Notes under the pieces: generated by a model | Databases searched by the model: none | Told to the model about the DNA's origin: nothing | The model's input: only the letters and a program-made list of their open reading frames with translations | Position numbers and translations under genes: made by a program | IMG/VR virus record: IMGVR_UViG_3300047470_000061 | Coordinates: 1-42,302 of that record | Reading direction: 5' to 3' (one strand) | DNA length: 42,302 nt | DNA from: a virus | In this document: piece after piece, positions 16,811 through 37,172 of the stretch | How positions within the stretch are numbered: the first letter of the stretch is position 1 | Layout of the letters: every line of letters begins with the position of its first letter

Positions 16811-16840
16811 ACACTGTGAATCACTGCCTATCGGCAGTGA
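16811..16840 (+). promoter_or_regulatory. Repeated operator site 1 (TCACTG family)
   Basis: ACACTG-tgaa-TCACTG-cctatcgg-CAGTGA. The second and third elements form a perfect 20-bp inverted repeat. It lies in the 85-base gap between holin and the SGNH tail gene. A possible promoter (TTGGTT-N18-TACACT) overlaps the first element. Confidence 0.65.
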
Positions 16841-16865
16841 GTCCGGCGATCTGTTAGGAGCCGCT

Positions 16866-18719
16866 ATGGCTATTGAAATAACCCCGCTAGGGTTCCAGAA
16901 GCCGGACGGAAACGAAGCCGTACGCAACGGCGACAACGTCATAGCTGCAAACGCGCAGAGGGCCGAAGACGAACACCAGACCTCGCGCGGCAGACTCGGC
17001 GACATCGAGGTAAAGAACAACGAGCAGGACGGTCGCCTCAACGGCATCGATGCGAAGAACATCAGCCAGGACGGCACCCTCTCCACCCACGAGGCGCGAC
17101 TCGCGAACCTTGACAACGCCGCAGGGTTCACTGGGGATCCGCTCGCACTGAACGACGCAGCCTTCGCCGAAACGCTGACGAACGGCACCGCCACATCAGC
17201 GGCCCTCGACGTCCGCCTGACCGCACGGGTTCCGCCCATCGTCGCGGCCGCCATCGCCTCAGACCCGACCGTCGCCAGTTCCGCCGCCACGATGGCGCAG
17301 AACACGGCAGGCCTCGTTCCTGCATGGAAGGCCACGACCGCGTATGTTGCGGGCCAGCGGGTCATTGCCCCGAACGGTGACGTTGTCGCCGCAAAGGTCA
17401 ACTTCACATCCGGCGCCTCCTACTCGGCGACGAACTGGAACGCGTCCACCCAAGACGGGCGGATCGGCGCCAACGAACTGAGCATAACCGCACTGGATAC
17501 GAAGAAGGTTGACGACTCCGACCCCAGACTCTCCCGCAAGGTCCAGTTCGGCGACTATGCCCAACCGTTCGCGGACAAGGATGGGTATGTATCCGGTGGC
17601 GTACAGTTAGACGGCGTGTGGAATTTCGAAAAGTCGCCGCGGGTCAAAGGCCAGTCGGATACCACCTTGCGCCCCCTCAACACTACCGGCTACACGCACG
17701 CCCTCACCGACAAGGACGGCTACGTTGCCCTCGGTGTACGGCTCGACGGCTCGGTAGTGGCGCCGAAGCTCGTCCTCCCGCCCGGCGCCATTTCGGATCC
17801 ACTCGCTGACGCTAACCTCATGGCCGGCTACACCAAGTCAAGCCGCTACCGCGTCGCCGCGATTGGTGACTCCCTCACGGACGGCTACTTCGGCGGCGTA
17901 GGTAACCAGGACGCCGACGCATATCCTGCGAAGCTTCAGGCTCTCATGCCTGCCGGCGTGACAGTCTTCAACCTCGGAAACTCCGGTTACACCACGGACG
18001 AGGAGGCGGTCCGCATCGGCGCGCTCCCCGTGCCGCTTACCGTCACGGGTGGCAGCATCCCAGCTTCCGGGCCCGTGGACGTTACCACGACCGCTGTTAT
18101 CGGCTGGCGGCCATCTGGCACCACGCGGACAATTCCAGGCACTCTCGCGGGCGTTGCTGGCACCCTGACCCGTTCCAGCAGTGACACCGTGTTCACGTTC
18201 ACGCGGACGACCACGGGAACCGCTGTTGCGGTGACCGCTGGCACCTTGTTCGTCCCAGACTTCGCAGGCCACGAAGGCGACACCGCCATCATCCTCCTCG
18301 GACGCAACAACGTGTCCTTCTCGGTGCAGGGTGCAGACACAAGCATTGCCGAACACGTCGAAAAGGGCATTGCTAGGATCGTGAACTGGCTGACCCCGCA
18401 GATCAAACACGTCCTCGTAGTCTCCGCGACCACGACCACGTCGGAAACCTCCGGCACTGGTGGTTACGCCATCGTCGCGGACATCAACGCCCGTCTCGCG
18501 GCAGCCTACCCGTCCCGATTCCTCGACCTGCGGACCTACCTCGCACACCAAGCCATCTACGACCTCGGGCTCACCCCCACCACCGCGGACAACACCGCAA
18601 TGACCGGCGACACGCTACCCCCGTCGATCATGGACGACAACACCCACTGGTCAAAAGCCACCGCCACACTCGTTGCCGCCCAGATCAACAACTACCTAAC
18701 CACGAGAGGATGGGTCTAA
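16866..18719 (+). CDS. Tail protein with SGNH/GDSL hydrolase domain
   Basis: A 617-residue protein with TTAGGAG before ATG. The N-terminal third contains heptad-like repeats (GDIEVKNNEQDGRLNGIDAK) suggesting a trimeric fibre, followed by tail-fibre-like D-K-D-G-Y-V repeats at about 240 and 285. The C-terminal part is an SGNH hydrolase: block I GDSLTDGY with nucleophile S336, a later N-L-G-N-S-G, and D591-N-T-H594 as the catalytic D-x-x-H. It probably deacylates or trims host cell-surface polysaccharide during adsorption. It has its own operator site upstream, outside the main tail cluster. Confidence 0.88.
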   Translation: MAIEITPLGFQKPDGNEAVRNGDNVIAANAQRAEDEHQTSRGRLGDIEVKNNEQDGRLNGIDAKNISQDGTLSTHEARLANLDNAAGFTGDPLALNDAAFAETLTNGTATSAALDVRLTARVPPIVAAAIASDPTVASSAATMAQNTAGLVPAWKATTAYVAGQRVIAPNGDVVAAKVNFTSGASYSATNWNASTQDGRIGANELSITALDTKKVDDSDPRLSRKVQFGDYAQPFADKDGYVSGGVQLDGVWNFEKSPRVKGQSDTTLRPLNTTGYTHALTDKDGYVALGVRLDGSVVAPKLVLPPGAISDPLADANLMAGYTKSSRYRVAAIGDSLTDGYFGGVGNQDADAYPAKLQALMPAGVTVFNLGNSGYTTDEEAVRIGALPVPLTVTGGSIPASGPVDVTTTAVIGWRPSGTTRTIPGTLAGVAGTLTRSSSDTVFTFTRTTTGTAVAVTAGTLFVPDFAGHEGDTAIILLGRNNVSFSVQGADTSIAEHVEKGIARIVNWLTPQIKHVLVVSATTTTSETSGTGGYAIVADINARLAAAYPSRFLDLRTYLAHQAIYDLGLTPTTADNTAMTGDTLPPSIMDDNTHWSKATATLVAAQINNYLTTRGWV

Positions 18720-18722
18720 CCC

Positions 18723-19418
18723 ATGCCCGGACGCGCCATAGTCGCCCCAGTCAGCTTCGGAGACACAACCCTCCCCAAGATCGACATCACCTACATCGCC
18801 CCGCTCATCGGCGCCACCTACGACTTCGCCGTAGACCAGCTCCCCCTCGGGCCGCTCGCCTCCTGGCCCAGCCTGATCGACGCCACAACCATGCCCGCAG
18901 ACGGCGCAACCGCACCAACCGTCATAACAGACGGCGCATCCAAGACGGTCCGATTCAACGGCACCATCGACCGGATGAAACTCACGGCGAGCATGAACAC
19001 CGCACACAGTGTTGTTGTTGTTGCCAAGCTCCGGGCGCCCGTCGCCAACGATCAAATCTTCTTCGGCCTCGGCGGCAACACCGAAGGCGCTATCGGCGTC
19101 AACAGTGCTGCCACCGGCTACACCGGCTACGGCGGCGGCAACAGTGTCGCCACCAGCCCCGCGGTCGTCCCTGATACCGGCTGGCACGTCTTCATCCTCA
19201 CCCACGCCGGGACGTCATCCGCGGTCCGGATCGACAGCGCCGAAACCACGGGCACCCTCACCGTCGCGCAACGGAACGGCATCACCCTCGGATTCAGCAG
19301 CGCAGCAGGCAACCGGGCCGCCATCGACTACAAGCGTTTGGCGGTCATCCCAGGCACCATGACAACGGCCCAGCGCACCGCCATTGTTGCCCAGCTCAAA
19401 GCCCAGTACGGCATCTAA
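18723..19418 (+). CDS. Tail protein with LamG/concanavalin-like fold
   Basis: A 231-residue protein starting 3 bases after the preceding gene. The pattern (L-I-D-A-T-T-M...V-R-F-N-G-T...H-S-V-V-V-V-A-K-L...W-H-V-F-I-L-T-H-A-G) is that of LamG-like jelly-roll lectin domains, and the C-terminus (MTTAQRTAIVAQLKAQYGI) is typical of phage tail proteins of this type. It probably binds host glycans and works with the SGNH protein. The reading frame is followed by a terminator. Confidence 0.75.
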   Translation: MPGRAIVAPVSFGDTTLPKIDITYIAPLIGATYDFAVDQLPLGPLASWPSLIDATTMPADGATAPTVITDGASKTVRFNGTIDRMKLTASMNTAHSVVVVAKLRAPVANDQIFFGLGGNTEGAIGVNSAATGYTGYGGGNSVATSPAVVPDTGWHVFILTHAGTSSAVRIDSAETTGTLTVAQRNGITLGFSSAAGNRAAIDYKRLAVIPGTMTTAQRTAIVAQLKAQYGI

Positions 19419-19419
19419 C

Positions 19420-19440
19420 CGGCGCGTCAACACCGCGCCG
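19420..19440 (+). repeat. Short inverted repeat after the LamG-like tail gene
   Basis: CGGCGCG-tcaacac-CGCGCCG, a perfect 7-bp stem directly behind the stop codon, with no T-run. The rest of the 138-base gap up to 19515 shows no gene. Confidence 0.4.
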
Positions 19441-19515
19441 AACAGCGCAACCGTGTAATATCGATGCCGTGCGTCAGGGAACCCAACGCCCCAGACGCGC
19501 CGCGCGCGCACAACA

Positions 19516-19554
19516 AAGCCCCCACTGTCCTAACGGATAGTGGGGGCTTCTTTG
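19516..19554. terminator. Bidirectional terminator between tail genes and integrase
   Basis: AAGCCCCCACT (19516-19526) pairs perfectly with AGTGGGGGCTT (19539-19549) over a 12-base loop. It is flanked by T-rich sequence on the plus strand (CTTCTTTG) and, read from the other side, by TTTGTTG. It separates converging transcripts: the late tail genes from the left and the integrase operon from the right. Confidence 0.9.
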
Positions 19555-19556
19555 CG

Positions 19557-20708
19557 TTAAGAGGCTAGCTCTGGGACCTCGGGCAGTTCGCCCAACGCCT
19601 TGGCTGCGTGTTCGGCCCCGCGGAAGTGAGCATCGGGGACCAGGTGCGCATAGAGGTCGGCGGTAATCTGGATCGAGTTGTGCCCCATGCGCGTTGACAG
19701 TTCGTAGAGGCTCATCCCCGCGTGGAGCATGATGGCGGCGTGAAGGTGCCTGAGCGAGTGAACCACAACGTGCTTCTCATCGCCGATCCCAAGCCCAGCC
19801 TTCTTCCTGGCAGGCTGCCACGCCCTGTTGTAGAAGGCTTGGGCCGTAAACTCGCCCTCCTCCTTCATGCGGAACACGCGGCCCTTATCCTTCATGGCCT
19901 GCTCAACTAGTGGGCGCACGGCGTAGACGGTTGACGGTGCGAGGCTTACCTTGCGCCGGCTCTTAGCTGACTTCGGCTCACCAACATACCGGGCTTCACC
20001 TTCACCGCCGAGCTTGTGAGCTTTGGTGATGAACACTAGCGGCGGCTGATTGTCTAGCTTGAAGTCTTTCCCAACCAAAGCCGTCGCCTCACTGAACCGG
20101 CAACCGGTCCCGACAAGGAACTCAAGGAACGGTCGGAAGTGCGGGTCTATGCGGTCACGTATGGCCTTGTAGTCGTCTAGGTCGATGTCGTCCCCATCGT
20201 CGCCCACGCGCACCTTTTTAGGCAGCCGCACGCCCTTACACGGGTTCCTGTCGATGACCCCGTAACGGACTTGAGTCTCAAACGTCGCCGACAGTAGCCC
20301 ATGCTTGTCGCTGATCGTCTTCGGCCCCAACCCGCGCCCCTGCATCCACTTGATCCAGGCAATGATGGAGTCGTACGTCACGGCCTTGACTTTCATCTGA
20401 CCCAACGGCCCGTCGAAGTGCAGCCGGATCGCGTCACGGTAACGCTTCAACGTGTACGGCGTCGTCCCAACAAGCTGGTCAACGTGGGCGGTCATCGCCT
20501 CAGCAACGGTCGGCCCGTCGTGCTGTGAGTCCTCGTACACCTTCGTGGCGGCGCCGAGCGAGTTTCCGTTTGCGTCAAGGAGCCGTTTCCACATCTCAGC
20601 TTCGGGCCGGTCGTCAAAGGTGATCGAATCACCCTTGCCATTCTCACGCCACATCACCTGATGCGCTTCGGACCCGTCAGCGCGGGTCCGGGTACGGATA
20701 CTAGCCAC
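19557..20708 (-). CDS. int: Tyrosine integrase
   Basis: A 383-residue site-specific recombinase. An N-terminal arm-binding region is followed by a core-binding SAM-like domain (about 65-150, HVDQLVGTTPYTLKRYRDAI) and a catalytic domain with Arg in GTGCRFSEA, H-S-L-R-H, G-H-N-S and the nucleophile Tyr in ITADLYAHL. It inserts phage DNA at attB using the attP proposed at 21268-21478. The start is GTG 20708 (MASIRTRTRADG) with a poor ribosome binding site, 15 bases after the previous gene, suggesting readthrough translation from upstream. Confidence 0.95.
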   Translation of the reverse strand: MASIRTRTRADGSEAHQVMWRENGKGDSITFDDRPEAEMWKRLLDANGNSLGAATKVYEDSQHDGPTVAEAMTAHVDQLVGTTPYTLKRYRDAIRLHFDGPLGQMKVKAVTYDSIIAWIKWMQGRGLGPKTISDKHGLLSATFETQVRYGVIDRNPCKGVRLPKKVRVGDDGDDIDLDDYKAIRDRIDPHFRPFLEFLVGTGCRFSEATALVGKDFKLDNQPPLVFITKAHKLGGEGEARYVGEPKSAKSRRKVSLAPSTVYAVRPLVEQAMKDKGRVFRMKEEGEFTAQAFYNRAWQPARKKAGLGIGDEKHVVVHSLRHLHAAIMLHAGMSLYELSTRMGHNSIQITADLYAHLVPDAHFRGAEHAAKALGELPEVPELAS

Positions 20709-20723
20709 GGGTGGCGCCCGGGA

Positions 20724-21002
20724 TCACTTGCTGGTCCATAGCCCGGGCATTGGGCGGCTGACGACTTCATACCATTCCGGGTGTGCGTCCGCAGTCGCTC
20801 GCGCGCTCTCCTCGGAAGGGTGCCCAGCAATGGTCAGCGAATGCAGGTCGCGGACGCCCCACTGACACTCGCGCATATGCGGCGCCGCGGCTTCGAGTGC
20901 GGCGCGGGCGACCTTCTTGTACGCGGTCCACGCATCCGCGCCGTTGTGATCTCGTAATGCCATCGCCTTAGCCGCCGCCTCTACCGCAGCCTCTGGGATC
21001 AC
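20724..21002 (-). CDS. Small protein of the AAVEAA/ALEAAAPHM type
   Basis: A 92-residue protein; the GTG start overlaps the stop of the upstream minus-strand gene by one base, with GAGGTGG as ribosome binding site. It begins MIPEAAVEAAAKAMA and contains ARAALEAAAPHM, a pattern also found in the plus-strand gene at 22996-23217. It lies between integrase and attP, where it might be a recombination accessory, but no function is visible. Confidence 0.75.
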   Translation of the reverse strand: MIPEAAVEAAAKAMALRDHNGADAWTAYKKVARAALEAAAPHMRECQWGVRDLHSLTIAGHPSEESARATADAHPEWYEVVSRPMPGLWTSK

Positions 21003-21211
21003 TACACCACCTCGCCTTCGATGGTCGCGGTATCGCGATATCGGATGCGTAGGGCGTCGCCGCTGAAGCCGTCCACGGTTGAGATTTGGATGTCAGGCTT
21101 CATCTCCGCGATGCGTCGCATGTCGGCTTCGGTCAGAGCGATGGTTCCGCCGGCCCGATCAATCAACACGGCCAATATCTGCGGAAGGAACTCGGTGATT
21201 GTTGCCGTCAT
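21002..21211 (-). CDS. Small hypothetical protein at the start of the integrase operon
   Basis: A 69-residue protein from ATG 21211 (MTATITEFLPQILAVLIDRA) with a moderate ribosome binding site (AAGACAGG). It is an alpha/beta-looking protein with no recognised motif. It is the first gene of the integrase operon, just outside the attP region. A single TCACTG lies in its leader at 21223-21228. Confidence 0.7.
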   Translation of the reverse strand: MTATITEFLPQILAVLIDRAGGTIALTEADMRRIAEMKPDIQISTVDGFSGDALRIRYRDTATIEGEVV

Positions 21212-21267
21212 GCGCCTGTCTTTCACTGGAGTGGTAGTAGTGCATCACTCTAAGTTTAACAGAGGCT

Positions 21268-21478
21268 TGGCAACACTTCTAGGCTTCCTGTCAACATCGG
21301 CTAAAAGTTCCTTGAATTCTAGGGCCTAAATCTGTGGAGCTAAGGAGATTCGAACTCCTGTGAATACCCCGGAATGTAGCGGGTTTACCCCTAGAACATA
21401 GGGAAGTTTGCCGCTGTTTGTATCATTCTGTCGCATCTATTCCATCCTGTTGTTGCCCTTGGCAACGCCATGTCAACA
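21268..21478. other. Candidate attP: tRNA 3'-end core with phased arm sites
   Basis: On the minus strand 21335-21359 reads as the 3' part of a tRNA: T-stem AGGAG, T-loop TTCGAAT, T-stem CTCCT, acceptor strand TAGCTCC, discriminator A. No matching 5' half is present, so it is a fragment, as expected for an integration core. T70 in the acceptor strand would allow a G3-U70 pair, compatible with tRNA-Ala. Flanking repeats TGKCAACR occur at 21268 and 21289 (21 bp apart) and at 21460 and 21471 (11 bp apart), plus an inverted GGCAACA at 21451-21457. The gap 21227-21535 has no gene. Confidence 0.7.
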
Positions 21479-21486
21479 GGAAACTG

Positions 21487-21529
21487 TCACTGTAATTCAC
21501 TGCCAACGCGCCGTGATTCACGGTACAAT
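21487..21529 (+). promoter_or_regulatory. Repeated operator site 2 and promoter of the methylase gene
   Basis: TCACTG (21487-21492)-taat-TCACTG (21497-21502)-ccaacgcg-CCGTGA, within a 13-bp palindrome CCGTGATTCACGG (21510-21522). A good -10 box TACAAT (21524-21529) follows. Transcription starting 7 bases after the -10 would begin at the ATG of the methylase gene (21536), i.e. a leaderless mRNA; there is no ribosome binding site. Confidence 0.65.
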
Positions 21530-21535
21530 TGACTT

Positions 21536-23268: not shown

Positions 23269-23670
23269 CTATGCGGCAACCATCCTTTGAGCCCGCATCG
23301 CAATCGCCGGGCATTTTTGACAGTCCCAACAGCCGGCCCTGCTCGCGTCGGCATCGGTCAACGTCGCGGCCCGGTCCATGAGCACCCGCTTAGTCACCCC
23401 GAGCCCCTTAGCAATCTCCGACAGCGGCCCGGTCTTATTGCACGACCCGATCCGCTCCAGGGGCAGAAGTCGCTCTGCCGTCTCGTAACGCACGGACATC
23501 TCCACGGACTCGAGCTGCCGCGTCGTATGCCCACGCTCAACGTGAATCATCTCGTGGGTCAACGTGCACAACAACTGAACCGCCGACAACCGGTCATCAA
23601 TATAAATCTTCGAACCGTCCGTGTAACCGTGAACACCTTCAGGCAAACGACCAAACACAACAGCAACCAC
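23269..23670 (-). CDS. ImmA/IrrE-family metallopeptidase
   Basis: A 133-residue protein with THEMIHVERGH at about residues 38-48, the H-E-x-x-H zinc motif of ImmA/IrrE peptidases. The C-terminal part carries a small cysteine cluster (C-W-D-C-Q-K-C). Relatives cleave or antagonise HTH repressors to trigger prophage induction. It lies downstream of the repressor on the same strand, 207 bases away. The start is probably GTG 23670; GTG 23658 is also possible. Confidence 0.85.
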   Translation of the reverse strand: MVAVVFGRLPEGVHGYTDGSKIYIDDRLSAVQLLCTLTHEMIHVERGHTTRQLESVEMSVRYETAERLLPLERIGSCNKTGPLSEIAKGLGVTKRVLMDRAATLTDADASRAGCWDCQKCPAIAMRAQRMVAA

Positions 23671-23877: not shown

Positions 23878-24351
23878 CTAGTCGCGGTCGTCTTCGCCCT
23901 CAACGTGATCATCCGAGGCGGCAAGGTCGAAATGGTGCTGCTCCGTGGATGCCCCTAGGCCGGCCTGCAATGCTTCCATGCGACTGGCGACCTCACGCAT
24001 CAGTTCAGCCGTGGAGAACGCGGACAGGGGGCGCGGGGCAGGTACCTCGGCGGGCTTGTCTAGGTCAGCGAACGTCACAGACGACGCGGCCCGGTTCGGA
24101 TCCTCCGTCAGGGCGTCAATGACCTGGTTGCGCCACCCAAGAGCGACCTCGAGCTTGCGGAGGGTCTGAGGGCGCGGCCACCGCTGGGCAAACTCAAACT
24201 GCTGGACCGTGCTGTCAGATCCAAGGCCCGCCAGCTCTGCGAAGGCGACCCTTCCTAGGCCCATCTCCTCGCGCCGCTGCTTGGCCAGAAGACCAAGCCG
24301 CCGCATCATCGCATCCTGGCCGTAATCACGTTCGCTCTGTACTGCACTCAT
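23878..24351 (-). CDS. Immunity repressor candidate (HTH protein)
   Basis: A 157-residue protein; ATG at 24351 has AGAGG five bases upstream. The N-terminal 75 residues look like an XRE-type helix-turn-helix (LGLLAKQRREEMGLGRVAFA, then S-D-S-T-V-Q-Q-F-E-F-A-Q-R-W-P-R-P-Q-T-L-R-K-L-E). Residues 100-135 look like a coiled coil (FSTAELMREVASRMEALQAG), and the C-terminus is acidic. It is divergent from the Cro-like gene at 24657 and placed next to an ImmA peptidase, the classical repressor position. No LexA-type self-cleavage domain is visible. Confidence 0.8.
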   Translation of the reverse strand: MSAVQSERDYGQDAMMRRLGLLAKQRREEMGLGRVAFAELAGLGSDSTVQQFEFAQRWPRPQTLRKLEVALGWRNQVIDALTEDPNRAASSVTFADLDKPAEVPAPRPLSAFSTAELMREVASRMEALQAGLGASTEQHHFDLAASDDHVEGEDDRD

Positions 24352-24391: not shown

Positions 24392-24679
24392 TTACTGCTG
24401 GTGGGACTGGCTCTGGACTTAGATGCCTGCCGAGACCCTGCTCATGTCGAAACTCAAACACGCCGCCCCCAGTAGCAGCAAAAGATTTTTAATTGATACT
24501 ACTGCAAGAAACTCGGTAGCACAGGCTTTTTGCAGTCGAATTCATGTTCGAACGATGGGCGATCTGACCGCGGAATCACGCGGAATTAGGGCAAGTTACT
24601 GGAAGCTACTGCGTTGCGACTTGACGGTTTACTCCGTGCTACTGCATACTGAACGCATGAATACAGTGAAAGCCAGTAA
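24392..24679. promoter_or_regulatory. Immunity control region with multiple YYACTG half-sites
   Basis: This 305-base gap (24352-24656) between divergent repressor and Cro-like genes holds TTACTG (24392), CAGTAG (24470), CTACTG (24499), TTACTG-gaag-CTACTG (24596-24611), CTACTG (24639) and ATACTG (24646). Just inside the next gene is the opposed pair CAGTGA-aagc-CAGTAA (24664-24679). The two pairs use the same 4-base spacing as the eight genome-wide TCACTG sites. It is read as the primary operator cluster of the lysis-lysogeny switch. An AT-rich stretch at 24482-24497 may hold the repressor promoter. Confidence 0.65.
24621..24650 (+). promoter_or_regulatory. Early rightward promoter
   Basis: TTGACG (24621-24626), an 18-base spacer and CATACT (24645-24650). 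Six bases separate the -10 from the ATG at 24657, so the transcript should start at or next to the initiation codon (leaderless). The -35 follows the TTACTG-N4-CTACTG pair by nine bases and CTACTG/ATACTG overlap the -10, so a protein bound there would block RNA polymerase. Confidence 0.65.
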
Positions 24680-24926
24680 GGCTCCCAAAGACCCCGAGAT
24701 GGTCCGGATTGGTCGGACTCTCTTCACCCTCCGCGAACGCTACGGATACACGCAGAAGGAGCTGGCAGACGCGGTAGAAATCTCCCGCGCTTACATCAGC
24801 CTCATCGAGTCCGGCGCCAAGCCCCTCCAAGACCGGCTCCTCGCAAAGGTCGCCGACGCCCTCGAAATCACCCCACTCGCAATCAAGCGCTTCGACCACG
24901 AGGCAGAACTCGCGTTCGCAGCGTGA
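24657..24926 (+). CDS. Cro-like XRE-family HTH regulator
   Basis: An 89-residue protein with a clear HTH at about residues 17-70: GRTLFTLRERYGYTQKELAD, then I-S-R-A-Y-I-S-L-I-E-S-G and a final helix. The ATG is immediately downstream of a good promoter with no ribosome binding site; codons 3-8 include the opposed operator pair. A longer upstream extension in the same frame exists but would swallow the promoter, so it is rejected. It is the first gene of the lytic early operon and probably represses the divergent repressor gene. Confidence 0.82.
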   Translation: MNTVKASKAPKDPEMVRIGRTLFTLRERYGYTQKELADAVEISRAYISLIESGAKPLQDRLLAKVADALEITPLAIKRFDHEAELAFAA

Positions 24927-25159
24927 CCGTTTTTGATGAGCGGTTCATGACGGTGCAGGAGTTGGCCGGGTTCCTGGGGATCAGCCCGACGAGCGTTTAC
25001 AACCGGCTCCACGAATGGCCGCACATGAGAACGACTGCCGGCGGGATCATCCGGTTCCGCGAAGCACACGTTGAACAAATCCTCGAAGCCATGACCAAGA
25101 AACCCGCACCACCAGTCGTTCGCCCGAATGTGGGCACGAGAGCCAGGAGAAACCGATGA
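24923..25159 (+). CDS. xis: Excisionase-like MerR/HTH_17 protein
   Basis: A 78-residue protein; the GTG start overlaps the previous stop (GTGA). Residues 8-50 (FMTVQELAGFLGISPTSVYN, then W-P-H-M-R-T-T-A-G-G-I-I-R-F-R) form the winged HTH of the excisionase/HTH_17 family. The basic, proline-rich tail ends R-A-R-R-N-R. Together with the integrase it probably directs excision; a role as a second regulator is possible. Its place next to the Cro-like gene suits early expression during induction. Confidence 0.75.
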   Translation: MTVFDERFMTVQELAGFLGISPTSVYNRLHEWPHMRTTAGGIIRFREAHVEQILEAMTKKPAPPVVRPNVGTRARRNR

Positions 25160-25726: not shown

Positions 25727-25938
25727 GCGCGCGCACGATTACCACCTCCGAAGAACTCCATGCACTGCCGGCTGGGACTGTCCTGCGGGATGACAACGGA
25801 CGCCTCTGGGAGTGGGAGGAGATCGGCTACGGCGGCATTGAGAAGGCGCTATCGGCAATGGGTATCGGCTCCATGCTCGCGCTGTCCAGCTTCCGGAGCT
25901 TCCCGGCAACGGTCCTCTATGAAGGAGAGTCCAAGTGA
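25723..25938 (+). CDS. Small hypothetical protein
   Basis: A 71-residue ORF, GTG start overlapping the previous stop. The sequence contains LPAGTVLRDDNGRLWEWEEI, a beta-hairpin pattern frequent in small phage proteins (V-L-x-D-x-x-G-x-x-W), and ends S-S-F-R-S-F-P-A-T-V-L-Y-E. Function unknown. Confidence 0.7.
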   Translation: MSARTITTSEELHALPAGTVLRDDNGRLWEWEEIGYGGIEKALSAMGIGSMLALSSFRSFPATVLYEGESK

Positions 25939-27250: not shown

Positions 27251-27293
27251 TCACTGCGAATCACTGCAAAAAGTCAGTGAAACAGGATAGAAT
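27251..27293 (+). promoter_or_regulatory. Repeated operator site 3 with -10 box
   Basis: TCACTG (27251-27256)-cgaa-TCACTG (27261-27266)-caaaaagt-CAGTGA (27275-27280). A good -10 (TAGAAT, 27288-27293) lies 21 bases after the second TCACTG, the same distance as at site 2. It precedes the recombination and replication operon; the ribosome binding site GAAAGAAGG follows for the gene at 27317. Confidence 0.72.
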
Positions 27294-28947: not shown

Positions 28948-28949
28948 CA

Positions 28950-29406: not shown

Positions 29407-29436
29407 TCACTGCATTTCACTGTATCAACCCAGTAG
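29407..29436 (+). promoter_or_regulatory. Repeated operator site 4
   Basis: TCACTG (29407-29412)-catt-TCACTG (29417-29422)-tatcaacc-CAGTAG (29431-29436). No convincing -10 box was seen; the hairpin at 29436 begins immediately after. Confidence 0.62.
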
Positions 29437-29456
29437 GCGCCCCCGAAAGGGGGGCC
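29436..29456 (+). terminator. GC hairpin in the leader of the 5-cytosine methylase
   Basis: GGCGCCCCC-gaaa-GGGGGGCC: five G-C pairs next to a GAAA tetraloop, a bulged G and three further pairs. There is no T-run. It could be an mRNA-stabilising leader hairpin or attenuator between SSB and methylase. Confidence 0.5.
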
Positions 29457-29476
29457 TGGACCCCCAAGGAGTCACC

Positions 29477-31130: not shown

Positions 31131-31459
31131 AGAACCCCACTGTTTACCGCGACATTTGCGGCACCGTCCCCGGCTACCGGGCGCACACCAAACGTGTAGA
31201 GGAAAGGTGCCAGCCCTGCAAAGAAGCTTGGACAATCCGCTGTCGCAAATACACCAAGCCCACACCCACCCTGCCAACAGCCGCCGAGGTCATCGCTGAG
31301 ATCGAGTGGATGCTCAGCCTCAACCAGGGCACCGGCTACATCCTGAAGGCTATCGGCTACGCGGGGCGCGAGGACTCACTCCGTTCACGCCTCCAGAAAT
31401 GGGGGCGCCTCGACGTGTACCACCGCCTCATCGGCGAAGAATATTGGGTGGCGGCGTGA
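31127..31459 (+). CDS. Zinc-finger-like protein (C-H-C-C)
   Basis: A 110-residue protein in an ATGA overlap. Residues 11-31 read CGTVPGYRAHTKRVEERCQP then C, giving C11, H20, C28 and C31 in an arrangement frequent in small actinophage proteins (C-G-T-x-x-G-Y-x-x-H...C-x-x-C). The C-terminal half (residues 52-110) is helical, with GTGYILKAIGYAGREDSLRS resembling an HTH. It probably binds DNA. Confidence 0.7.
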   Translation: MKNPTVYRDICGTVPGYRAHTKRVEERCQPCKEAWTIRCRKYTKPTPTLPTAAEVIAEIEWMLSLNQGTGYILKAIGYAGREDSLRSRLQKWGRLDVYHRLIGEEYWVAA

Positions 31460-31794
31460 GGTGGTTTGGCCGCAATGACGGCTACTACGTGTACTGGCTC
31501 TGCGACGAGTACGGCGTGATCTACGTGGGCTACACGGAGAACCCTGGTCGGCGAATCAACGAGCACCGCATAGACAAGGCGTGGTTCAAGGATGTAACGA
31601 AGATTGACATCAGCCGCTACGCCACGAAGGAAGAAGCCCTGAAGGAAGAGGCGATGTCGATCTTGTTCGGCGAGGATCTGCACAACATCCAGCTTCATAG
31701 CCGCATTGCCAAGGCGGCGTTCGCCGACGCGTCGGATGGTGTGCGATACGACGCACTAGAGCGCTACGAAAACGTCCCAGTTGGGAGATTCTGA
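31456..31794 (+). CDS. GIY-YIG nuclease
   Basis: A 112-residue protein from GTG 31456. The nuclease core is YYVYWLCDEYGVIYVGYTEN at residues 9-28, in which Y-V-Y...Y-V-G is the GIY-YIG pair, followed by P-G-R-R-I-N-E-H-R with the catalytic Arg and a later Glu. It is a single-domain form without a visible DNA-binding module, so it could be a homing nuclease remnant or a repair/recombination enzyme. It sits directly before the replication initiator. Confidence 0.82.
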   Translation: MRWFGRNDGYYVYWLCDEYGVIYVGYTENPGRRINEHRIDKAWFKDVTKIDISRYATKEEALKEEAMSILFGEDLHNIQLHSRIAKAAFADASDGVRYDALERYENVPVGRF

Positions 31795-32744
31795 TGGCGC
31801 GAGAACATGCCAGGATCCAGACTGCGATCTGGCTTGACGATGACTTCCTAGACCTCACCCCGGAGGCTCAGCACCTCTACCTTGTGGTGACTACGCAGAT
31901 GTCACTGAACTTCTGCGGCGTCACGGCATGGCATGCCGGCAGGGTGTCACAGCTCGCCCACGGCTGGACCGTGGCGCGGGTAGAAGCTGCCGCAGCGGAA
32001 CTATCGGCAGGCCTATACCTGGTCATTGACGAGACGACAGGCGAAGTGCTGGTGCGGTCATTCATCCGCAACGATGGGCTGCTGTCATCCCCCAATATCG
32101 CCAAGGCCATGTACCGGAAGTTCTCGGAGATCGGCTCACGGGCGATCCGCGGCGTTGTCGTTCACGAGTTGAACCGCCTGCACGATGAGGAGCCGCTACT
32201 GAAGGGCTGGGAAGCGTGCCGGGAACTGCTCAGCAAGCGGGCGACGGACCCCCGCGAACTGCCATTGTTCAACCCTTCCGCACCCGCTTTTGAAACCCTT
32301 CCCGAAACCCTTCCGCAAACCCTTTCCGAACCGGCGCGGAACCCTTCCGATGCTCCCTACTCCCTTCTCCCTACTCCTAACTCCCTAACTCCTCACTCCC
32401 CGCCAAAAAGCGGTTACCCCGCCGACTTCGAGAAGTTGTGGAATCTCTACCCGGCAAAGCGTGACAAGAAGGCCGCATACAAGGCCTACCAAAAAGCAGC
32501 CAAGGAAGCCGACTACGAAACCCTCGCCGCTGGTGTTGTCCGCTACAGGGACGACCCGAACCGGGAGCCCCAGTTCACCAAGCACTTCGGCACATGGCTG
32601 AATGCGGGCTCCTGGGATGACGAGCCACTGCCAGCCCGTGGTGGCAGGGCAATGGATCACAGTTCCCGCGGACTCGCAAAGGGCATGGCGATGCTCCAGG
32701 CTTACGACGCACAACAGTCATCATTCCCAGAGATTGAAGGATAG
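31794..32744 (+). CDS. Replication initiator-like HTH protein
   Basis: A 316-residue protein. The N-terminal 100 residues look like a winged HTH (TAIWLDDDFLDLTPEAQHLY...W-H-A-G-R-V-S-Q-L-A-H-G-W-T-V). A disordered linker (about 158-205, rich in P, T, L, N, S) follows. The C-terminal domain has FEKLWNLYPAKRDKKAAYKA and H-F-G-T-W-L-N-A-G-S-W-D-D-E, typical of phage initiator and helicase-loading proteins. The linker DNA is made of repeats that probably form the origin, as in the lambda O gene. Confidence 0.8.
   Translation: MAREHARIQTAIWLDDDFLDLTPEAQHLYLVVTTQMSLNFCGVTAWHAGRVSQLAHGWTVARVEAAAAELSAGLYLVIDETTGEVLVRSFIRNDGLLSSPNIAKAMYRKFSEIGSRAIRGVVVHELNRLHDEEPLLKGWEACRELLSKRATDPRELPLFNPSAPAFETLPETLPQTLSEPARNPSDAPYSLLPTPNSLTPHSPPKSGYPADFEKLWNLYPAKRDKKAAYKAYQKAAKEADYETLAAGVVRYRDDPNREPQFTKHFGTWLNAGSWDDEPLPARGGRAMDHSSRGLAKGMAMLQAYDAQQSSFPEIEG
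32271..32391 (+). repeat. Candidate replication origin: iterons plus 14-bp tandem repeats
   Basis: Five copies of AACCCTTYCG-type iterons begin at 32271, 32294, 32306, 32318 and 32340 (spacing 23, 12, 12, 22). The copies at 32271 and 32340 encode N-P-S, while the middle three are read in another frame as T-L-P or T-L-S. Directly after come three tandem copies of CTCCCTACTCC or a close variant at 32353, 32367 and 32381 (14-bp period, not a multiple of three), all pyrimidine. Repeats that ignore reading frame argue for DNA function. Position inside the initiator gene matches lambdoid origins. Confidence 0.68.
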
Positions 32745-32746
32745 CC

Positions 32747-33124
32747 ATGGACCACAAGCAGACAATCGCGATGCTGACCTGGGTGAACCAGGTTGACCCG
32801 CGCGTGATGTTGAACGAGGCGAACGTCGAAGTGTGGGCGTATGCGATGCGGAACACGCCGGCGGATGTTGCCAAGCAGGCCGTGTTGGAGCATTACAAGG
32901 CGAACGAGAGTATCGCCGCCAGTCCGGGTGCGATCAGCAAGCGGTCGGCGAACATTCGGACGAGCCGTGAAGCCGGGGAGCGGGCGATTGCGTTGGAGCC
33001 TGCAAAGCCGGTTGCGCATCCGATGTCGTGGCGGGCGAGGAACCCGGAGGAGTGGGATCGGCTGCAAGAGGTGGGGCGGCAGGAGCGGCAAAGGGACCTG
33101 GCAAGCCGTGGGCGTGCCCTGTGA
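32747..33124 (+). CDS. Helicase-loader-like or replication accessory protein
   Basis: A 125-residue protein right after the initiator. MLTWVNQVDPRVMLNEANVE, then V-W-A-Y-A-M...A-D-V-A-K-Q-A-V-L-E-H-Y...S-P-G-A-I-S-K resembles the N-terminal domain of phage helicase loaders (G39P-like: W, A-L-x-x-H-Y, P-x-x-I). The C-terminus is basic. The loader role is inferred from context and weak pattern similarity; it could be an uncharacterised replication protein. Confidence 0.6.
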   Translation: MDHKQTIAMLTWVNQVDPRVMLNEANVEVWAYAMRNTPADVAKQAVLEHYKANESIAASPGAISKRSANIRTSREAGERAIALEPAKPVAHPMSWRARNPEEWDRLQEVGRQERQRDLASRGRAL

Positions 33125-33534
33125 GTCACTGTAAGTCACTGTGTGGGAGTGAGTGCCGGGCAGTAGATTCTGAGCCGCCCACGAGCCTCCTGTCGCTTTT
33201 CGTCCCAAAGCCCACCGGCTGGCTCAACAGCAACATGAGGATCCACCGCATGGTCAAAGCCGATCGCGTGAAGGCGTGGCGTGCCGCAGCAGCCGAAGCG
33301 GTCCCGCCAGGATGGTCCTTCGATCACCCCGTAAGGATTGTGGCGCACGTCTGGAAGGATCGCGCCGGCAGGTACGACCCGAACAACCTGAACACCACCA
33401 CGAAAGCGTGTGTTGACGGGTTCGTTGACGCCGGCCTACTTGTCGATGACGACTGGAAGCACGTCCACGGACCCGATCATCGTCACGGCGGAAAAGGTGA
33501 ACCCGGCATTATTTTTAGTTTTGAATCACTGTGA
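33121..33534 (+). CDS. rusA: RusA-like Holliday junction resolvase
   Basis: From GTG 33121 (overlapping the previous stop) it is 137 residues. RusA hallmarks are LFVPKPTGWLNSNMRIHRMV at the N-terminal strand, the acidic pair around D86 in R-Y-D-P-N-N-L and D109-D111 in L-L-V-D-D-D-W. It cuts recombination junctions before packaging. The true start is uncertain: GTG 33121 would make operator site 5 coding; ATG 33235 (99 residues) would remove a conserved strand; CTG 33190 would give 114 residues, close to E. coli RusA (120). Confidence 0.85.
   Translation: MSHCKSLCGSECRAVDSEPPTSLLSLFVPKPTGWLNSNMRIHRMVKADRVKAWRAAAAEAVPPGWSFDHPVRIVAHVWKDRAGRYDPNNLNTTTKACVDGFVDAGLLVDDDWKHVHGPDHRHGGKGEPGIIFSFESL
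33126..33169 (+). promoter_or_regulatory. Repeated operator site 5
   Basis: TCACTG (33126-33131)-taag-TCACTG (33136-33141), then 19 bases and CAGTAG (33161-33166). The last spacer is 11 bases longer than in the other sites, about one helical turn, so phase is kept. A -10-like TAGATT overlaps CAGTAG. The site lies inside the first codons of the long RusA reading frame. Confidence 0.6.
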
Positions 33535-33558
33535 TTCACTGGAAAATGCGTGTAGACT
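33526..33558 (+). promoter_or_regulatory. Repeated operator site 6
   Basis: TCACTG (33526-33531)-tgat-TCACTG (33536-33541)-gaaaatgc-GTGTAG (33550-33555). The rusA stop codon lies in the 4-base spacer. A -10-like TAGACT (33553-33558) overlaps the third element, as at site 7. It precedes the HNH-AP2 gene. Confidence 0.6.
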
Positions 33559-33598
33559 TAAGTAAGTTACTACGGTTTCGACTGACGGGGATAATCGC

Positions 33599-34078
33599 AT
33601 GGCAGTAATAGAACTGATCGAAAGCCAACTAGCGAACTTTTGGGCGAAGGTTGATAAGACGGAGACGTGCTGGAACTGGACCGCCGGAACAAGCCGCGGG
33701 TACGGCGTATTCCATGTAGGGCGGAAGGCTCGGGCCGCGCATCGCGTTTCGTATGAACTGCACGTCGGCGCCATCCCGGAAGGTCGCCAACTAGACCACA
33801 CCTGCCACAACCGAGCTTGCGTAAACCCGGGCCACTTGCGCCCCGTGACGGCCAAGCAGAACTGCGAAAACGCTGGCGGCGCCCAAAAGAATAGCAAAAG
33901 CGGCGTCCGGGGCGTCACCTGGGATAACGGCAGACTTCTCTGGCGAGCCTCCATCTGCCACAACTGGAAGCGAATGTACCTCGGCTGCTACAAGACCATC
34001 GAGGAAGCCGAAAGGGTAGTAGTCGCTAAGCGTCTCGAACTTTTCACGCACAGCGACATGGACAAGAGGGCGGCATGA
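33599..34078 (+). CDS. HNH homing endonuclease with AP2 domain
   Basis: A 159-residue protein. Residues 20-95 form an HNH_3-type nuclease (C-W-N-W-T-A-G-T-S-R-G-Y-G, H-R-V-S-Y-E-L, L-D-H-T-C-H-N-R-A-C-V-N-P-G-H-L). Residues about 103-150 match an AP2/ERF DNA-binding domain (S-G-V-R-G-V-T-W, W-R-A-S-I, L-G-C-Y-K-T-I-E-E-A). HNH-AP2 pairs are free-standing homing endonucleases of phages. It has its own operator site and ribosome binding site (ACGGGGAT), consistent with an inserted unit. Confidence 0.88.
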   Translation: MAVIELIESQLANFWAKVDKTETCWNWTAGTSRGYGVFHVGRKARAAHRVSYELHVGAIPEGRQLDHTCHNRACVNPGHLRPVTAKQNCENAGGAQKNSKSGVRGVTWDNGRLLWRASICHNWKRMYLGCYKTIEEAERVVVAKRLELFTHSDMDKRAA

Positions 34079-34242
34079 TGAATCAGACTGAAGCAATCCG
34101 GGAGGTCATCGCCATGCACGCCGAAGACTTTTTCCGTGGGCACCTCAGTAATGGCTGCGTAATCTGCGGCCCGGACCGGGATAGCACTTACCCGTGCCGC
34201 ACGGTACGCACGCTAGAGCGAGTTGTTGGGGACATCGAATGA
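34075..34242 (+). CDS. Small Cys protein between HNH and methylase
   Basis: A 55-residue ORF with two adjacent start codons (ATGATG at 34075); the first overlaps the HNH stop. It has G-C-V-I-C-G-P-D and a third cysteine further on (Y-P-C-R-T-V-R-T-L), a pattern that also occurs in small actinophage proteins with C-x-x-C...Y-P-C. Probably a small zinc-binding protein; function unknown. Confidence 0.62.
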   Translation: MMNQTEAIREVIAMHAEDFFRGHLSNGCVICGPDRDSTYPCRTVRTLERVVGDIE

Positions 34243-34925
34243 GCCTCTACTATTCGGATGACTTCGTAACCCTCTACCACGGAGACTGCTTGACCGATCA
34301 TCGCGAATGGCTAGATGCTGATGTGCTGGTGACAGACCCTCCGTACGGCATGAGCATCGATCAGCGCGCCATGCGCCATAGCAACGGCAAGATGGACAAC
34401 TCGCTAAGGGTGTCGAACGCGGTGGCGGGCGATCAGGACGCGACAGCCCGAGACGACGCGCTCAAAGCATGGGGTAAGCGCCCGGCCATCATGTTCGGGA
34501 CATGGCGCGTGTCGCGCCCCAAGGGGACTAAGCAGCGACTGATCTGGCACAAGGCGAACACGCACCCGAACCTCACTCGCGCACCCTGGTACGCGACGGA
34601 GGAAGAAATCTACATCATCGGGGCGGGATTCGGGGGCGAGCCTGAGAGGAACGTCTACATCACGCACGAGCTTAGGAGTGGCAAGGACGGGCTAGCCGCA
34701 ATGACGGGACACCCAACACCTAAGCCCATCGGCCTCATGGAGGGCTTGATTAGGAAATGCCCAGACGGCGTAATTGCGGATCCATTTGCCGGATCGGGCG
34801 CAACGCTGATGGCCGCCAAGAACCTGCGCCGCCAAGTCGTCGGGGTCGAACTTGAGGAACGCTACTGCGAGATCATCGCCAAGCGTTGCGCGCAAGAAGT
34901 TTTTGATTTCGGACTTTCAGCATAA
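34239..34925 (+). CDS. DNA methyltransferase, beta class
   Basis: A 228-residue enzyme starting on the previous stop (ATGA). Motif IV TDPPYG is at about residue 31, and motif I (I-A-D-P-F-A-G-S-G-A-T-L) is at about 183, with H-P-T-P-K-P just before it. This order marks an N6-adenine or N4-cytosine methylase of the beta group. It is shorter than the lysogeny-block methylase and lacks its HTH segment. Function: probable protection against restriction. Confidence 0.9.
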   Translation: MSLYYSDDFVTLYHGDCLTDHREWLDADVLVTDPPYGMSIDQRAMRHSNGKMDNSLRVSNAVAGDQDATARDDALKAWGKRPAIMFGTWRVSRPKGTKQRLIWHKANTHPNLTRAPWYATEEEIYIIGAGFGGEPERNVYITHELRSGKDGLAAMTGHPTPKPIGLMEGLIRKCPDGVIADPFAGSGATLMAAKNLRRQVVGVELEERYCEIIAKRCAQEVFDFGLSA

Positions 34926-34933
34926 CTACTAAA

Positions 34934-34966
34934 TCACTGTGTTTCACTGCCTCGATGCAGTAGACT
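34934..34966 (+). promoter_or_regulatory. Repeated operator site 7
   Basis: TCACTG (34934-34939)-tgtt-TCACTG (34944-34949)-cctcgatg-CAGTAG (34958-34963), with a -10-like TAGACT at 34961-34966. It lies between the methylase and the next operon of small genes. Confidence 0.65.
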
Positions 34967-34976
34967 AAGCACCAGC

Positions 34977-34995
34977 CCCACCCTTGCGCGGTGGG
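34977..34995 (+). terminator. Leader hairpin after operator site 7
   Basis: CCCACC (34977-34982) pairs with GGTGGG (34990-34995) over a 7-base loop, between the operator and the gene at 35017. No T-run. Similar hairpins follow sites 4 and 8, so it may be a leader element. Confidence 0.4.
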
Positions 34996-35016
34996 CACGA
35001 AATGGAGATGAGCACC

Positions 35017-35322
35017 ATGAAGCGAGACACCAGAACGGCGTACCGGGCTAGAGCAGCCGCCACGGAACGCAGCATAGACGCGGCCCTTGCTGAAGCTAAA
35101 GCGGAATGGGAGGCCACGACCGCAGCGAACCAGGCCGAGTACCGGGTAAAGTTCGCGCCCGTCCCGTACACCACGGAAGAACTCGGGGCGGCCAGAGTCG
35201 TCCGCACCGACGTCGGGTGGCACAAAGTAGTCCGCGTCAACGCCAAATCAGTCACAGTCGAAAGCGGCTACGCATGGAATGACCGCTACACCCTCGACAA
35301 AGTTCTGGAGGTCAGAGCATGA
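35017..35322 (+). CDS. Hypothetical protein with N-terminal coiled coil
   Basis: A 101-residue protein; ATG 35017 is chosen because GGAG lies nine bases upstream (ATGs at 35002 and 35008 are too close to it). Residues 5-45 are helical (YRARAAATERSIDAALAEAK). The C-terminal half is a small beta domain (A-R-V-V-R-T-D-V-G-W-H-K-V-V-R-V-N-A-K-S-V-T-V). The pattern W-H-K-V-V-R-V-N-x-K-S-V-x-V is common in actinophage hypothetical proteins. Confidence 0.7.
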   Translation: MKRDTRTAYRARAAATERSIDAALAEAKAEWEATTAANQAEYRVKFAPVPYTTEELGAARVVRTDVGWHKVVRVNAKSVTVESGYAWNDRYTLDKVLEVRA

Positions 35323-35453
35323 GGCTTCATACGCTCCAGAACTGCATCAGCCTGGCCGAGGGGATCCCGAGGGATGGCGGAAACTTCCGCGTCCTCGATG
35401 AGCTGCTGATTGAGCTGCGCCACCTCGCCAAGGTTGAGGAGGCCGCAAAATGA
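35319..35453 (+). CDS. Small hypothetical protein
   Basis: A 44-residue ORF, ATGA overlap. MRLHTLQNCISLAEGIPRDG is followed by a helix (LDELLIELRHLAKVEEAA). Function unknown. Confidence 0.6.
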   Translation: MRLHTLQNCISLAEGIPRDGGNFRVLDELLIELRHLAKVEEAAK

Positions 35454-35545
35454 GCACCATCCGCACCTGGGTCGAGCGCCACATCATCGCCGACGACCCT
35501 GACCCGCAGTATTCACGCCTCGACCGGATGGACGGACTCAAATGA
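35450..35545 (+). CDS. 31-residue hypothetical peptide
   Basis: MSTIRTWVERHIIADDPDPQ then YSRLDRMDGLK, in ATGA overlap with both neighbours and with AGGAGG upstream. The W-V-E-R-H-I-I-A-D-D-P motif resembles short peptides found in many actinophages. Confidence 0.55.
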   Translation: MSTIRTWVERHIIADDPDPQYSRLDRMDGLK

Positions 35546-35814
35546 GCGACTACAACGAGCACCTGATCAGCATGGCCGGCGGGGACGGGGACGTGGTTGC
35601 GGAGATTGCGGCGCGGATTCCCCAGATTCATGAATCCGAGATGAGCCGCGCAGAAAAGGACCGCGCCGCCCTCCTCGCCATGGTGCGGGAACAGCGGGCC
35701 GTGATTGAACGGGTGGAGGTGCTCGTGGAAATCCTCGGGGCAAGGAAAGGGCACCTGTTGGGGTGGGTTGCGAGTAACCTCCGAGCCGCCCTCGCCACCC
35801 CGGACGCATCATGA
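35542..35814 (+). CDS. Hypothetical coiled-coil protein
   Basis: A 90-residue ORF overlapping by ATGA. The central part (S-E-M-S-R-A-E-K-D-R-A-A-L-L-A-M-V-R-E-Q) is a helix continuing into a hydrophobic segment. Not recognised. Confidence 0.65.
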   Translation: MSDYNEHLISMAGGDGDVVAEIAARIPQIHESEMSRAEKDRAALLAMVREQRAVIERVEVLVEILGARKGHLLGWVASNLRAALATPDAS

Positions 35815-35954
35815 GCGAGGACGTGCGCGCGTACCAGGCCAGCATCCAGCGGGACGGCGCGGCACTGTCAGCGGCGATCATGACCCGCCGGCTACGCAAA
35901 TGCATCGCGGAAGGGTGCCACATTGACGGGGCATGCGGGAGGTGCGGGCTGTGA
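35811..35954 (+). CDS. Small Cys-rich protein
   Basis: A 47-residue ORF, ATGA overlap. The C-terminus has C-I-A-E-G-C-H-I-D-G-A-C-G-R-C-G-L: four cysteines and a histidine that could bind zinc. Function unknown. Confidence 0.6.
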   Translation: MSEDVRAYQASIQRDGAALSAAIMTRRLRKCIAEGCHIDGACGRCGL

Positions 35955-36154
35955 GTGGGGGAATCGGCGACAAGGTTGGCTACAGGCTGCTTCAAGACAT
36001 GGGGGGCCGCTGGGTGGACGTGGACGATTACCAATTCGACACCATAAGCGAGGCGGTTGCGATGCTCACTGACTACCAAGAGGAAGAACCCGGCTCGACG
36101 TTCGCTGTCGCCCGGCTCGAACTCGCCATGATTAGCCGACCGGAGAAGCCATGA
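35951..36154 (+). CDS. Small hypothetical protein
   Basis: A 67-residue ORF, GTG start in a GTGA overlap. It reads as a small alpha/beta protein (YRLLQDMGGRWVDVDDYQFD, then T-I-S-E-A-V-A-M-L-T-D-Y). Function unknown. Confidence 0.64.
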   Translation: MSGGIGDKVGYRLLQDMGGRWVDVDDYQFDTISEAVAMLTDYQEEEPGSTFAVARLELAMISRPEKP

Positions 36155-36306
36155 CCGACCGCACGAACAATTACGACTTACTCCTGGCCCGTGAGTCAGA
36201 ATCCCGCGAACGGATCCAGAAAGCGTTGTTCGAACTGGACATGCAGAAGTCGCGCGATGCCTACAGTCCATCAATCATCCGGCACATCCTCGAAGGGAAG
36301 CCATGA
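36151..36306 (+). CDS. Small hypothetical protein
   Basis: A 51-residue ORF overlapping both neighbours by ATGA. It is charged and helical (LLLARESESRERIQKALFEL). Not recognised. Confidence 0.6.
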   Translation: MTDRTNNYDLLLARESESRERIQKALFELDMQKSRDAYSPSIIRHILEGKP

Positions 36307-37118
36307 ATTGCAAGTGTGGCGCCGAGACGTCCGATGGAATATTCCTCTGCCACGCCTGCTGTGCCCGCCTGGAGCAACTGCTGTGCGAGCTGGACAGCGT
36401 CGTCGGTGACCTTGTAGCCGCGATTCCGCGGGCGTCACTGACGGCCTCGTATGGCGAAAGGGTCAGCGCCTCGGGTAGCCTGCACGCGCCGTTGCCGATC
36501 AACGACACCGCGTTGGATGCGCACATGGCGTTGGACAAGTACCTGCGGGAGATATGCACAAGACTCACAAGATTCACAGGTATTCACACGACCCGGCGCG
36601 ACTCGTCCGGGCTCGCGTCGTACCTGCAGACCCACATCGGGACACTCCGCACGCAGGATTGGGCCGGGGATGTTGAGGGCGAGTTGGGCAAGCTGCTGCG
36701 GGAGTGTGAGGACGTGACCCGCGTGCACGAGCAGAAAGTGTTCGCCGGGACATGCGCTGAGGACGGGTCCGACCTGTACGCGGTCAAAGGTGCGGATACG
36801 GCCCGGTGCAAGACGTGCGGGCTTAGTTACGAGGTGGCCAGGTGGACGGCTTATGCGCAAACCGCCAAGGACTACTACATCGGGACCGCAGCCGACCTGT
36901 CACGGAAACTCTCGGCACCGCAGTACGGGTACCTCATCACCGCCGACCAGATACGGAAGTGGGCGACCAAGCGTGGCGACAAGGATCCGAAGCTTGTCAG
37001 GGCCAACCCGGAGACGGACGAGACAGGTAAGCCGATACCTCCCGCATACCGGCTCGGGGATGTGCTGGACATCAAGAGGGCCAAGGATGAGAAGTGGCCT
37101 ATCAACGGAGCCGCTTAA
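36303..37118 (+). CDS. Zinc-ribbon and HTH-like DNA-binding protein
   Basis: A 271-residue protein starting MNCKCGAETSDGIFLCHACC, a first Cys cluster. A second cluster occurs near residues 150-176 (T-C-A-E-D...A-R-C-K-T-C-G-L). The C-terminal 75 residues resemble a MerR-like HTH (YLITADQIRKWATKRGDKDP, P-P-A-Y-R-L-G-D-V-L). Proteins of this layout recur in actinophages without known function. It ends the fourth early operon; operator site 8 follows. Confidence 0.72.
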   Translation: MNCKCGAETSDGIFLCHACCARLEQLLCELDSVVGDLVAAIPRASLTASYGERVSASGSLHAPLPINDTALDAHMALDKYLREICTRLTRFTGIHTTRRDSSGLASYLQTHIGTLRTQDWAGDVEGELGKLLRECEDVTRVHEQKVFAGTCAEDGSDLYAVKGADTARCKTCGLSYEVARWTAYAQTAKDYYIGTAADLSRKLSAPQYGYLITADQIRKWATKRGDKDPKLVRANPETDETGKPIPPAYRLGDVLDIKRAKDEKWPINGAA

Positions 37119-37126
37119 CATCCAAG

Positions 37127-37172
37127 TCACTGTAAGTCACTGTTGACAGACAGTGATTCTGTCCTGTATCGT
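37127..37172 (+). promoter_or_regulatory. Repeated operator site 8 overlapping a consensus promoter
   Basis: TCACTG (37127-37132)-taag-TCACTG (37137-37142)-ttgacaga-CAGTGA (37151-37156). A consensus -35 TTGACA (37143-37148) lies exactly between the second and third elements. With an 18-base spacer, TATCGT (37167-37172) is the likely -10; TGTATC at 16 bases is an alternative. A protein bound at this site would directly cover the -35. Confidence 0.75.

Follow-up and report, generated by a model that had tools for sequence, protein, structure and literature searches.

What acts on the paired TCACTG hexamers that recur along this phage genome, and which of its proteins is responsible? The stretch analysed here, called the window, comprises all 42,302 nucleotides of the IMG/VR virus record IMGVR_UViG_3300047470_000061, which belongs to a temperate Arthrobacter-type phage. 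It carries eight composite sites, in which two TCACTG copies one helical turn apart are followed by an inverted element. A previous interpretation of the letters alone (the sequence-only reading) proposed that the sites define a regulon extending over the whole phage, with direct repeats in an unusual geometry phased to the helix, and this proposal is well supported by sites that are intergenic, strand-biased and present in related phages. It is very likely that the sites are embedded in promoters and serve a phage-encoded regulator. They may be the operators of a single such regulator, for which the likeliest candidate, with close to an even chance of being the binder, is a small protein resembling the excisionases Xis and Cox.

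The exact pair TCACTG-N4-TCACTG occurs seven times in the window, each time on the plus strand and never on the minus strand, while third-order Markov simulations give a chance mean of 0.017. The pair at 16811 is a variant, with one mismatch in its first copy (ACACTG); the eight pairs announced by the sequence-only reading are all at the right coordinates, but as seven exact pairs and one variant. In the window, TCACTG forms 6-bp direct repeats at no spacing other than 10, and in the relatives at hardly any other; every other hexamer of the window reaches a count of at most 3 at any spacing of 7–40 bp. Rather than being equally frequent inside genes or on the other strand, the sites are strand-biased and intergenic: seven of the eight lie fully between genes, and that at 33526 covers the final 9 bases of the preceding gene, according to an approximate gene map. 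Qualifying 16-mers make up a fraction of 0.11 in the window, which gives p ~2e-8 for eight of eight intergenic sites.

The third element stands after N8 in seven sites and is displaced by 11 bases at 33126, as the sequence-only reading had it. Its nature becomes apparent from 21 sequence groups of sites, in which the invariant part is the TCACTG pair, whose first copy usually has an A two bases ahead of it and always a Y directly behind it. The inverted element follows after N8 in 11 groups, N9 in four, N18 in one and N19 in four. A fuller, four-element form is present in three relatives (G013 185, G001 2011 and G003 17544), where the full two-arm dyad reads TCACTG N4 TCACTG N8 CAGTGA N4 CAGTAG. 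Because this form is visible in relatives, the three-element form is best read as a degenerate two-arm dyad with a weaker inverted second arm, and this description replaces the asymmetric three-element architecture proposed before. The site would have two arms: the left one perfect, its two 6-bp elements spaced by one turn, and the right one inverted and weaker. In most early-operon promoters they would jointly cover the -35/-10 region.

The link to promoters is seen in the positions of TANNNT hexamers within 60 bases 3' of the core, which fall at +11 (four), +21 (five), +22 (two), +23 (two), +24 (one) and elsewhere (three); the offsets of +11 and +21–24 were picked after inspection, which makes the significance of the phasing optimistic. 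The -10-like hexamers reported earlier are present at +21 for 21487 and 27251 and at +22 for 33126, as is the -35 box TTGACA within the N8 of 37127. The CAGTAG version of the inverted element overlaps the -10. Promoter-like elements are absent 3' of 29407, where a conserved GC-rich hairpin comes next, and 3' of the G003 36114 group, which lies just 5' of a start codon; the site at 16811 is without a -10-like hexamer at the usual offsets. Taken together, the sites look like promoter-embedded operators. A hairpin kept in relatives also stands directly 3' of 34934. Both GC-rich hairpins (29436–29465 and 34967–34995) are conserved and are candidates for a terminator or leader structure.

Viral contigs were scanned for the composite and the pairs then counted per record. 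Far from being absent from relatives, the sites were found in all 12 related contigs that were read (G001–G005, G007, G008 and G010–G014, several of them fragmentary), each with 1 to 7 exact pairs, plus some one-mismatch pairs. Most of these sites lie at homologous genes; those at the exonuclease and single-stranded DNA-binding protein (SSB) genes each occur in 11 phages, the window included, and no counterpart of the site at 16811 was found 5' of the tail-fibre homologues in relatives. When the hexamers that recur at 10 bp are counted without bias, TCACTG comes first in all family records, sharing this rank in G014 and G010 with hexamers of a single copy. Of the exact copies that lie at most 60 bp apart in the six longest records checked, almost all are spaced by 10 bp. 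The single plus orientation noted in the sequence-only reading holds for the window but not for three relatives, where the site in the position of 37127 is inverted (G002 4149, G004 1300 and G008 37806). Across four orthologous sites of G002 and G008, 48 of 48 core bases are identical, while the segments of these two phages aligned by blastn show 74–98% identity, mostly 82–92%. Single matches in contigs G006, G009 and G016–G020 look like chance or local tandem repeats and were set aside.

The family is specific to phages. G003 is a prophage contig of Arthrobacter sp. ES3-54, and in the genome of this strain all seven exact pairs lie within 61.9–89.8 kb, the 28-kb stretch that matches the prophage contig, with none in the rest of the 4.8 Mb. 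The composite is present in 1 of 395 family genomes, that of ES3-54 alone, which argues against a host regulon, and this possibility was rejected. No such family was seen in the stretches examined of Arthrobacter phage isolates with related early genes (ArV2, 1191A and TripleJ), and no comparable 10-bp family in G395, G204 and G031, Micrococcaceae genomes with remote Xis-like homologues, which were uninformative. A literature search turned up no description of TCACTG as a phage site. The local 10-bp tandem repeat TCACTGCCTG of Arthrobacter sp. 131MFCol6.1 (G022:C1:1205674-1205699) is probably unrelated.

Two further locations extend the family beyond the early operons. A pair lies beside integrase arm-type sites in seven of eight putative attP regions (those of the window, G003, G007, G008, G014, G012 and G002, but not G010), the attP assignment being made from sequence; ARAGORN found no whole tRNA at the putative attP of the window. 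What comes after the attP pair in G008 and G014 is not a promoter but a hairpin resembling a terminator. The second location, overlooked by the sequence-only reading, is the cro promoter, where degenerate relatives of the pair (TTACTG, CTACTG) occur together with an inverted pair in the window phage (24596, 24629 and 24664) and in several relatives. Its -35 is TTGACG (24621–24626) and its -10 CATACT (24645–24650); the arms are separated by N19, and by N9 in G007. More CAGTAG/CTACTG elements, conserved in G003 and G004, occur at 24470–24540 on the repressor side of the immunity region. The positions of the sites and of the genes considered below are collected in Table 1.

Table 1. Composite sites, candidate binders and associated features of the window
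Feature	Positions	Strand	Remarks
Site 1: ACACTG TGAA TCACTG, N8, CAGTGA	16811..16840	+	gap 5' of tail-fibre gene (ATG 16866)
Site 2: TCACTG TAAT TCACTG, N8, CCGTGA, -10-like TACAAT (21524-21529)	21487..21529	+	adjoins attP arm-type sites; 5' of DNA methyltransferase gene
Site 3: TCACTG CGAA TCACTG, N8, CAGTGA, -10-like TAGAAT (27288-27293)	27251..27293	+	5' of RecE-type exonuclease (ATG 27317)
Site 4: TCACTG CATT TCACTG, N8, CAGTAG	29407..29436	+	3' of SSB gene
Site 5: TCACTG TAAG TCACTG, N19, CAGTAG overlapping -10-like TAGATT (33164-33169)	33126..33169	+	5' of RusA
Site 6: TCACTG TGAT TCACTG, N8, GTGTAG	33526..33568	+	5' of HNH endonuclease; -10-like options TAGACT (33553-33558) or TAAGTT (33563-33568)
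Site 7: TCACTG TGTT TCACTG, N8, CAGTAG overlapping -10-like TAGACT (34961-34966)	34934..34966	+	
Site 8: TCACTG TAAG TCACTG, TTGACA (-35) within N8, CAGTGA, -10-like TATCGT (37167-37172)	37127..37172	+	5' of DUF7455 gene
Tyrosine integrase	19557..20708	-	PHROG 1
Putative attP: tRNA 3'-end-like core (~21335-21360) and GTTGCC/GTCAAC arm-type repeats beside site 2	21330..21480	.	proposed from sequence and relatives
Metallo-protease (ImmA-type) beside repressor	23269..23670	-	PHROG 87
Immunity repressor-like HTH_3 protein	23878..24351	-	rival binder
cro promoter: TTACTG-N4-CTACTG (24596), TTACTC-N4-CTACTG (24629), inverted CAGTGA-N4-CAGTAA (24664-24679)	24596..24679	+	
Cro-like HTH_3 protein	24657..24926	+	rival binder
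Xis/Cox-like winged-helix protein, 78 aa, directly after cro	24923..25159	+	PHROG 66 'excisionase and transcriptional regulator', Pfam HTH_17

From these observations we infer binding by a protein, which protein this may be, and the sign of the regulation. The pattern suggests that a single regulator, perhaps excisionase-like, controls the early operons, the integration site and the lysis–lysogeny switch. The predicted fold of the Xis/Cox-like protein is nearest to BldC–DNA complexes, followed by Tn916 Xis, Pukovnik Xis, RdfS and a P2 DNA-binding protein. If it acts as 186 Apl, P2 Cox and BldC do, it might bind the direct repeats head to tail and, once bound, would mostly occlude the promoters. 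The same regulator would then read the composite in the cro promoter and the one that adjoins the integrase arm sites of attP, and could couple excision there to the control of cro and the other operons. The wider proposal is tentative: a BldC-like protein of the excisionase type would be a master regulator of the phage, through which one class of composite site ties most early operons and the cro switch to prophage excision, and the site would change together with its regulator between lineages.

An observation that separates the candidates comes from G008 and G002, in which the repressor and Cro are ~52% identical to those of the window phage, with both recognition helices changed, and the cro operator differs (CTACTTGTTTCCACTT), yet the exact TCACTG sites are kept. 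The Xis/Cox-like protein of these phages is 91–92% identical to that of the window and its recognition helix is unchanged; the comparison covers two phages and one replacement. All six loci retrieved in a search with the Xis/Cox-like protein belong to site-bearing phages. Neither the repressor nor the Xis/Cox-like protein had a match in a protein search of the phage collection, nor did the latter in the plasmid collection, and searches for relatives with the G008 Cro and the G419 Xis-like protein gave no new immunity combinations. The repressor frames of G008 and G002 (~8358+ and ~15386+) show an apparent extra N-terminal helix-turn-helix (HTH) compared with the window repressor, for which the structure model was too poor to be used (pLDDT 44.9).

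Several points weigh against the Xis/Cox-like protein as the binder. Its model is of modest confidence (pLDDT 73.5) and the structural matches all have E >= 0.001. In G003 its recognition helix differs (SPTSVYNRLHEW to TPTVIYNRLYEW), yet the TCACTG sites are unchanged. The core is nearly invariant, whereas known excisionases bind with low sequence specificity, and the inverted arm, present in nearly all of the 21 groups, is unexplained by head-to-tail binders. G418 (L140), another relative, in which no Xis/Cox homologue was detected, has a 10-bp tandem family of its own, TTACAG-N4-TTACAG-like, at 25832, 22461, 36069 and 38918 (two exact and two with 2 mismatches). The same class of element in the cro promoter fits the repressor or Cro at least as well. 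G419 (L142), a diverged phage, does not discriminate, because along with its motif all three proteins (repressor, Cro and Xis/Cox) have changed. Its family, CTACTA-N4-CTACTA-N8-GGGTAG, is found at 5901, 12900 and 14755, including a position 5' of the same exonuclease gene, and at 3286 and 3319 in the cro region.

The serious rival is the immunity repressor or Cro, or both, as HTH_3 proteins that would silence each early operon in the lysogen through sites forming a direct-repeat analogue of the L5 operators and stoperators. Pairs with the composite geometry in the cro promoter of the window phage, G003, G004, G007, G012 and G014 favour it, as does the joint change in G419 of the phage-wide sites (to CTACTA) and of the cro operator (to CTACTACTAGTTACTA). 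The inverted arm suits a dimeric HTH protein, and a precedent is provided by ArdK of plasmid R388, an HTH repressor with direct-repeat operators beside the -35 of five plasmid promoters (PMC9723621). However, in G008 and G002 the phage-wide sites stayed unchanged, and apparently constrained, beside an altered repressor and Cro; the tandem family of G418 was not found in its own repressor–cro region, and a role at attP would be unexpected for a repressor. Binding by the repressor or Cro, which the sequence-only reading had put forward for testing, has thereby become less clear, and it is somewhat less probable than binding by the Xis/Cox-like protein.

It is unlikely that the pair is instead an activator site, with the geometry of the sites of CII-like proteins, in which direct repeats spaced by one turn lie close to the -35, and that some phage regulator switches the operons on there. 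The core centre would lie near -42 or -32 from the presumed start, positions one helical turn apart, and several promoters are without a good -35. Any phage regulator might serve, including the family encoded at 36303–37118, for which the phages TripleJ and Pitbull have homologues with an annotation as HTH DNA-binding proteins. On the other hand, a perfect -35 already exists at 37127, the inverted arm lies over or next to the -10 in a manner suiting occlusion, and both 29407 and the G003 36114 group lack a promoter-like element downstream. Between phages whose sites are identical, the identity of the 36303 protein ranges over 54–88%, and the protein is still present in G417 and G418, where the sites are missing. 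That the pairs are a chance or non-regulatory repeat, for example a mobile or replication-related one, is hardly credible given the enrichment, strand bias, intergenic positions and phasing with -10 hexamers, and is already contradicted by the conservation of the core in diverged relatives.

Repeated sites that stand at the heads of operons throughout the phage are found in several groups of actinobacterial phages. The stoperators of L5 and other cluster A mycobacteriophages are asymmetric sites of 13 bp that occur singly; a monomeric two-domain repressor binds them, and they stop elongation (PMC9283540). The comparison with stoperators made in the sequence-only reading is apt as to the many sites across the genome and their orientation bias relative to transcription, but not as to structure and position, since the sites described here are tandem pairs with an inverted arm and mostly stand at promoter-like elements.

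The extended start-associated sequences (ESAS) of cluster K mycobacteriophages are inverted repeats embedded in promoters and spread over the phage; no regulator has been identified for them, and the immunity repressor has been called an unlikely one (PMC11373665). They resemble the present sites in being phage-wide, intergenic, promoter-embedded and of one main orientation, with inverted arms of near 17 bp, a better-kept left arm and a consensus that changes between subclusters (PMC3203893, PMC11373665). Unlike these sites, the arms in Adephagia (TTGACATGCATACAG) contain no 10-bp direct repeat and have the -35 inside the arm; the 17-bp arms enclosing the -35/-10 are not matched here, where the left arm is made of two 10-bp units 5' of or over the -35. 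ESAS are also absent from the Adephagia repressor region, whereas relatives of the present sites occur in the cro promoter. No common sequence of the kind of the 13-bp SAS was seen by eye at the start codons of the listed sites.

ArdK, and BldC of Streptomyces, which binds direct repeats head to tail (PMC5859096), share with the proposed system one small HTH or winged-helix protein acting on several promoters through direct repeats, which for ArdK adjoin the -35. Neither is tied to an attachment site, and the sequences and protein families differ, BldC being a structural relative only.

Among the closest precedents, alongside cluster K ESAS and the L5 stoperators, are Apl of coliphage 186, an excisionase and transcription regulator with sites of 6-bp direct repeats 10–11 bp apart at attP and pR–pL (PMC7498355), and Cox of P2-like phages; RdfS also binds attP and promoters. 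Common features are direct repeats of ~6 bp spaced by ~10 bp, found at attP and at lytic/lysogenic promoters, and a candidate winged-helix regulator whose gene belongs to the start of the early operon. Apl has runs of five to seven repeats at two places only, whereas the window has pairs with an inverted arm at eight places, and in place of purely head-to-tail repeats read with low specificity there is an inverted arm and a nearly invariant core. The sites at attP and the cro promoter, together with natural replacements of the repressor and Cro that separate the candidates, point to a specific protein to test. Should the excisionase-like protein prove to be the binder, the idea known from Apl and Cox would extend from one switch to a whole regulon.

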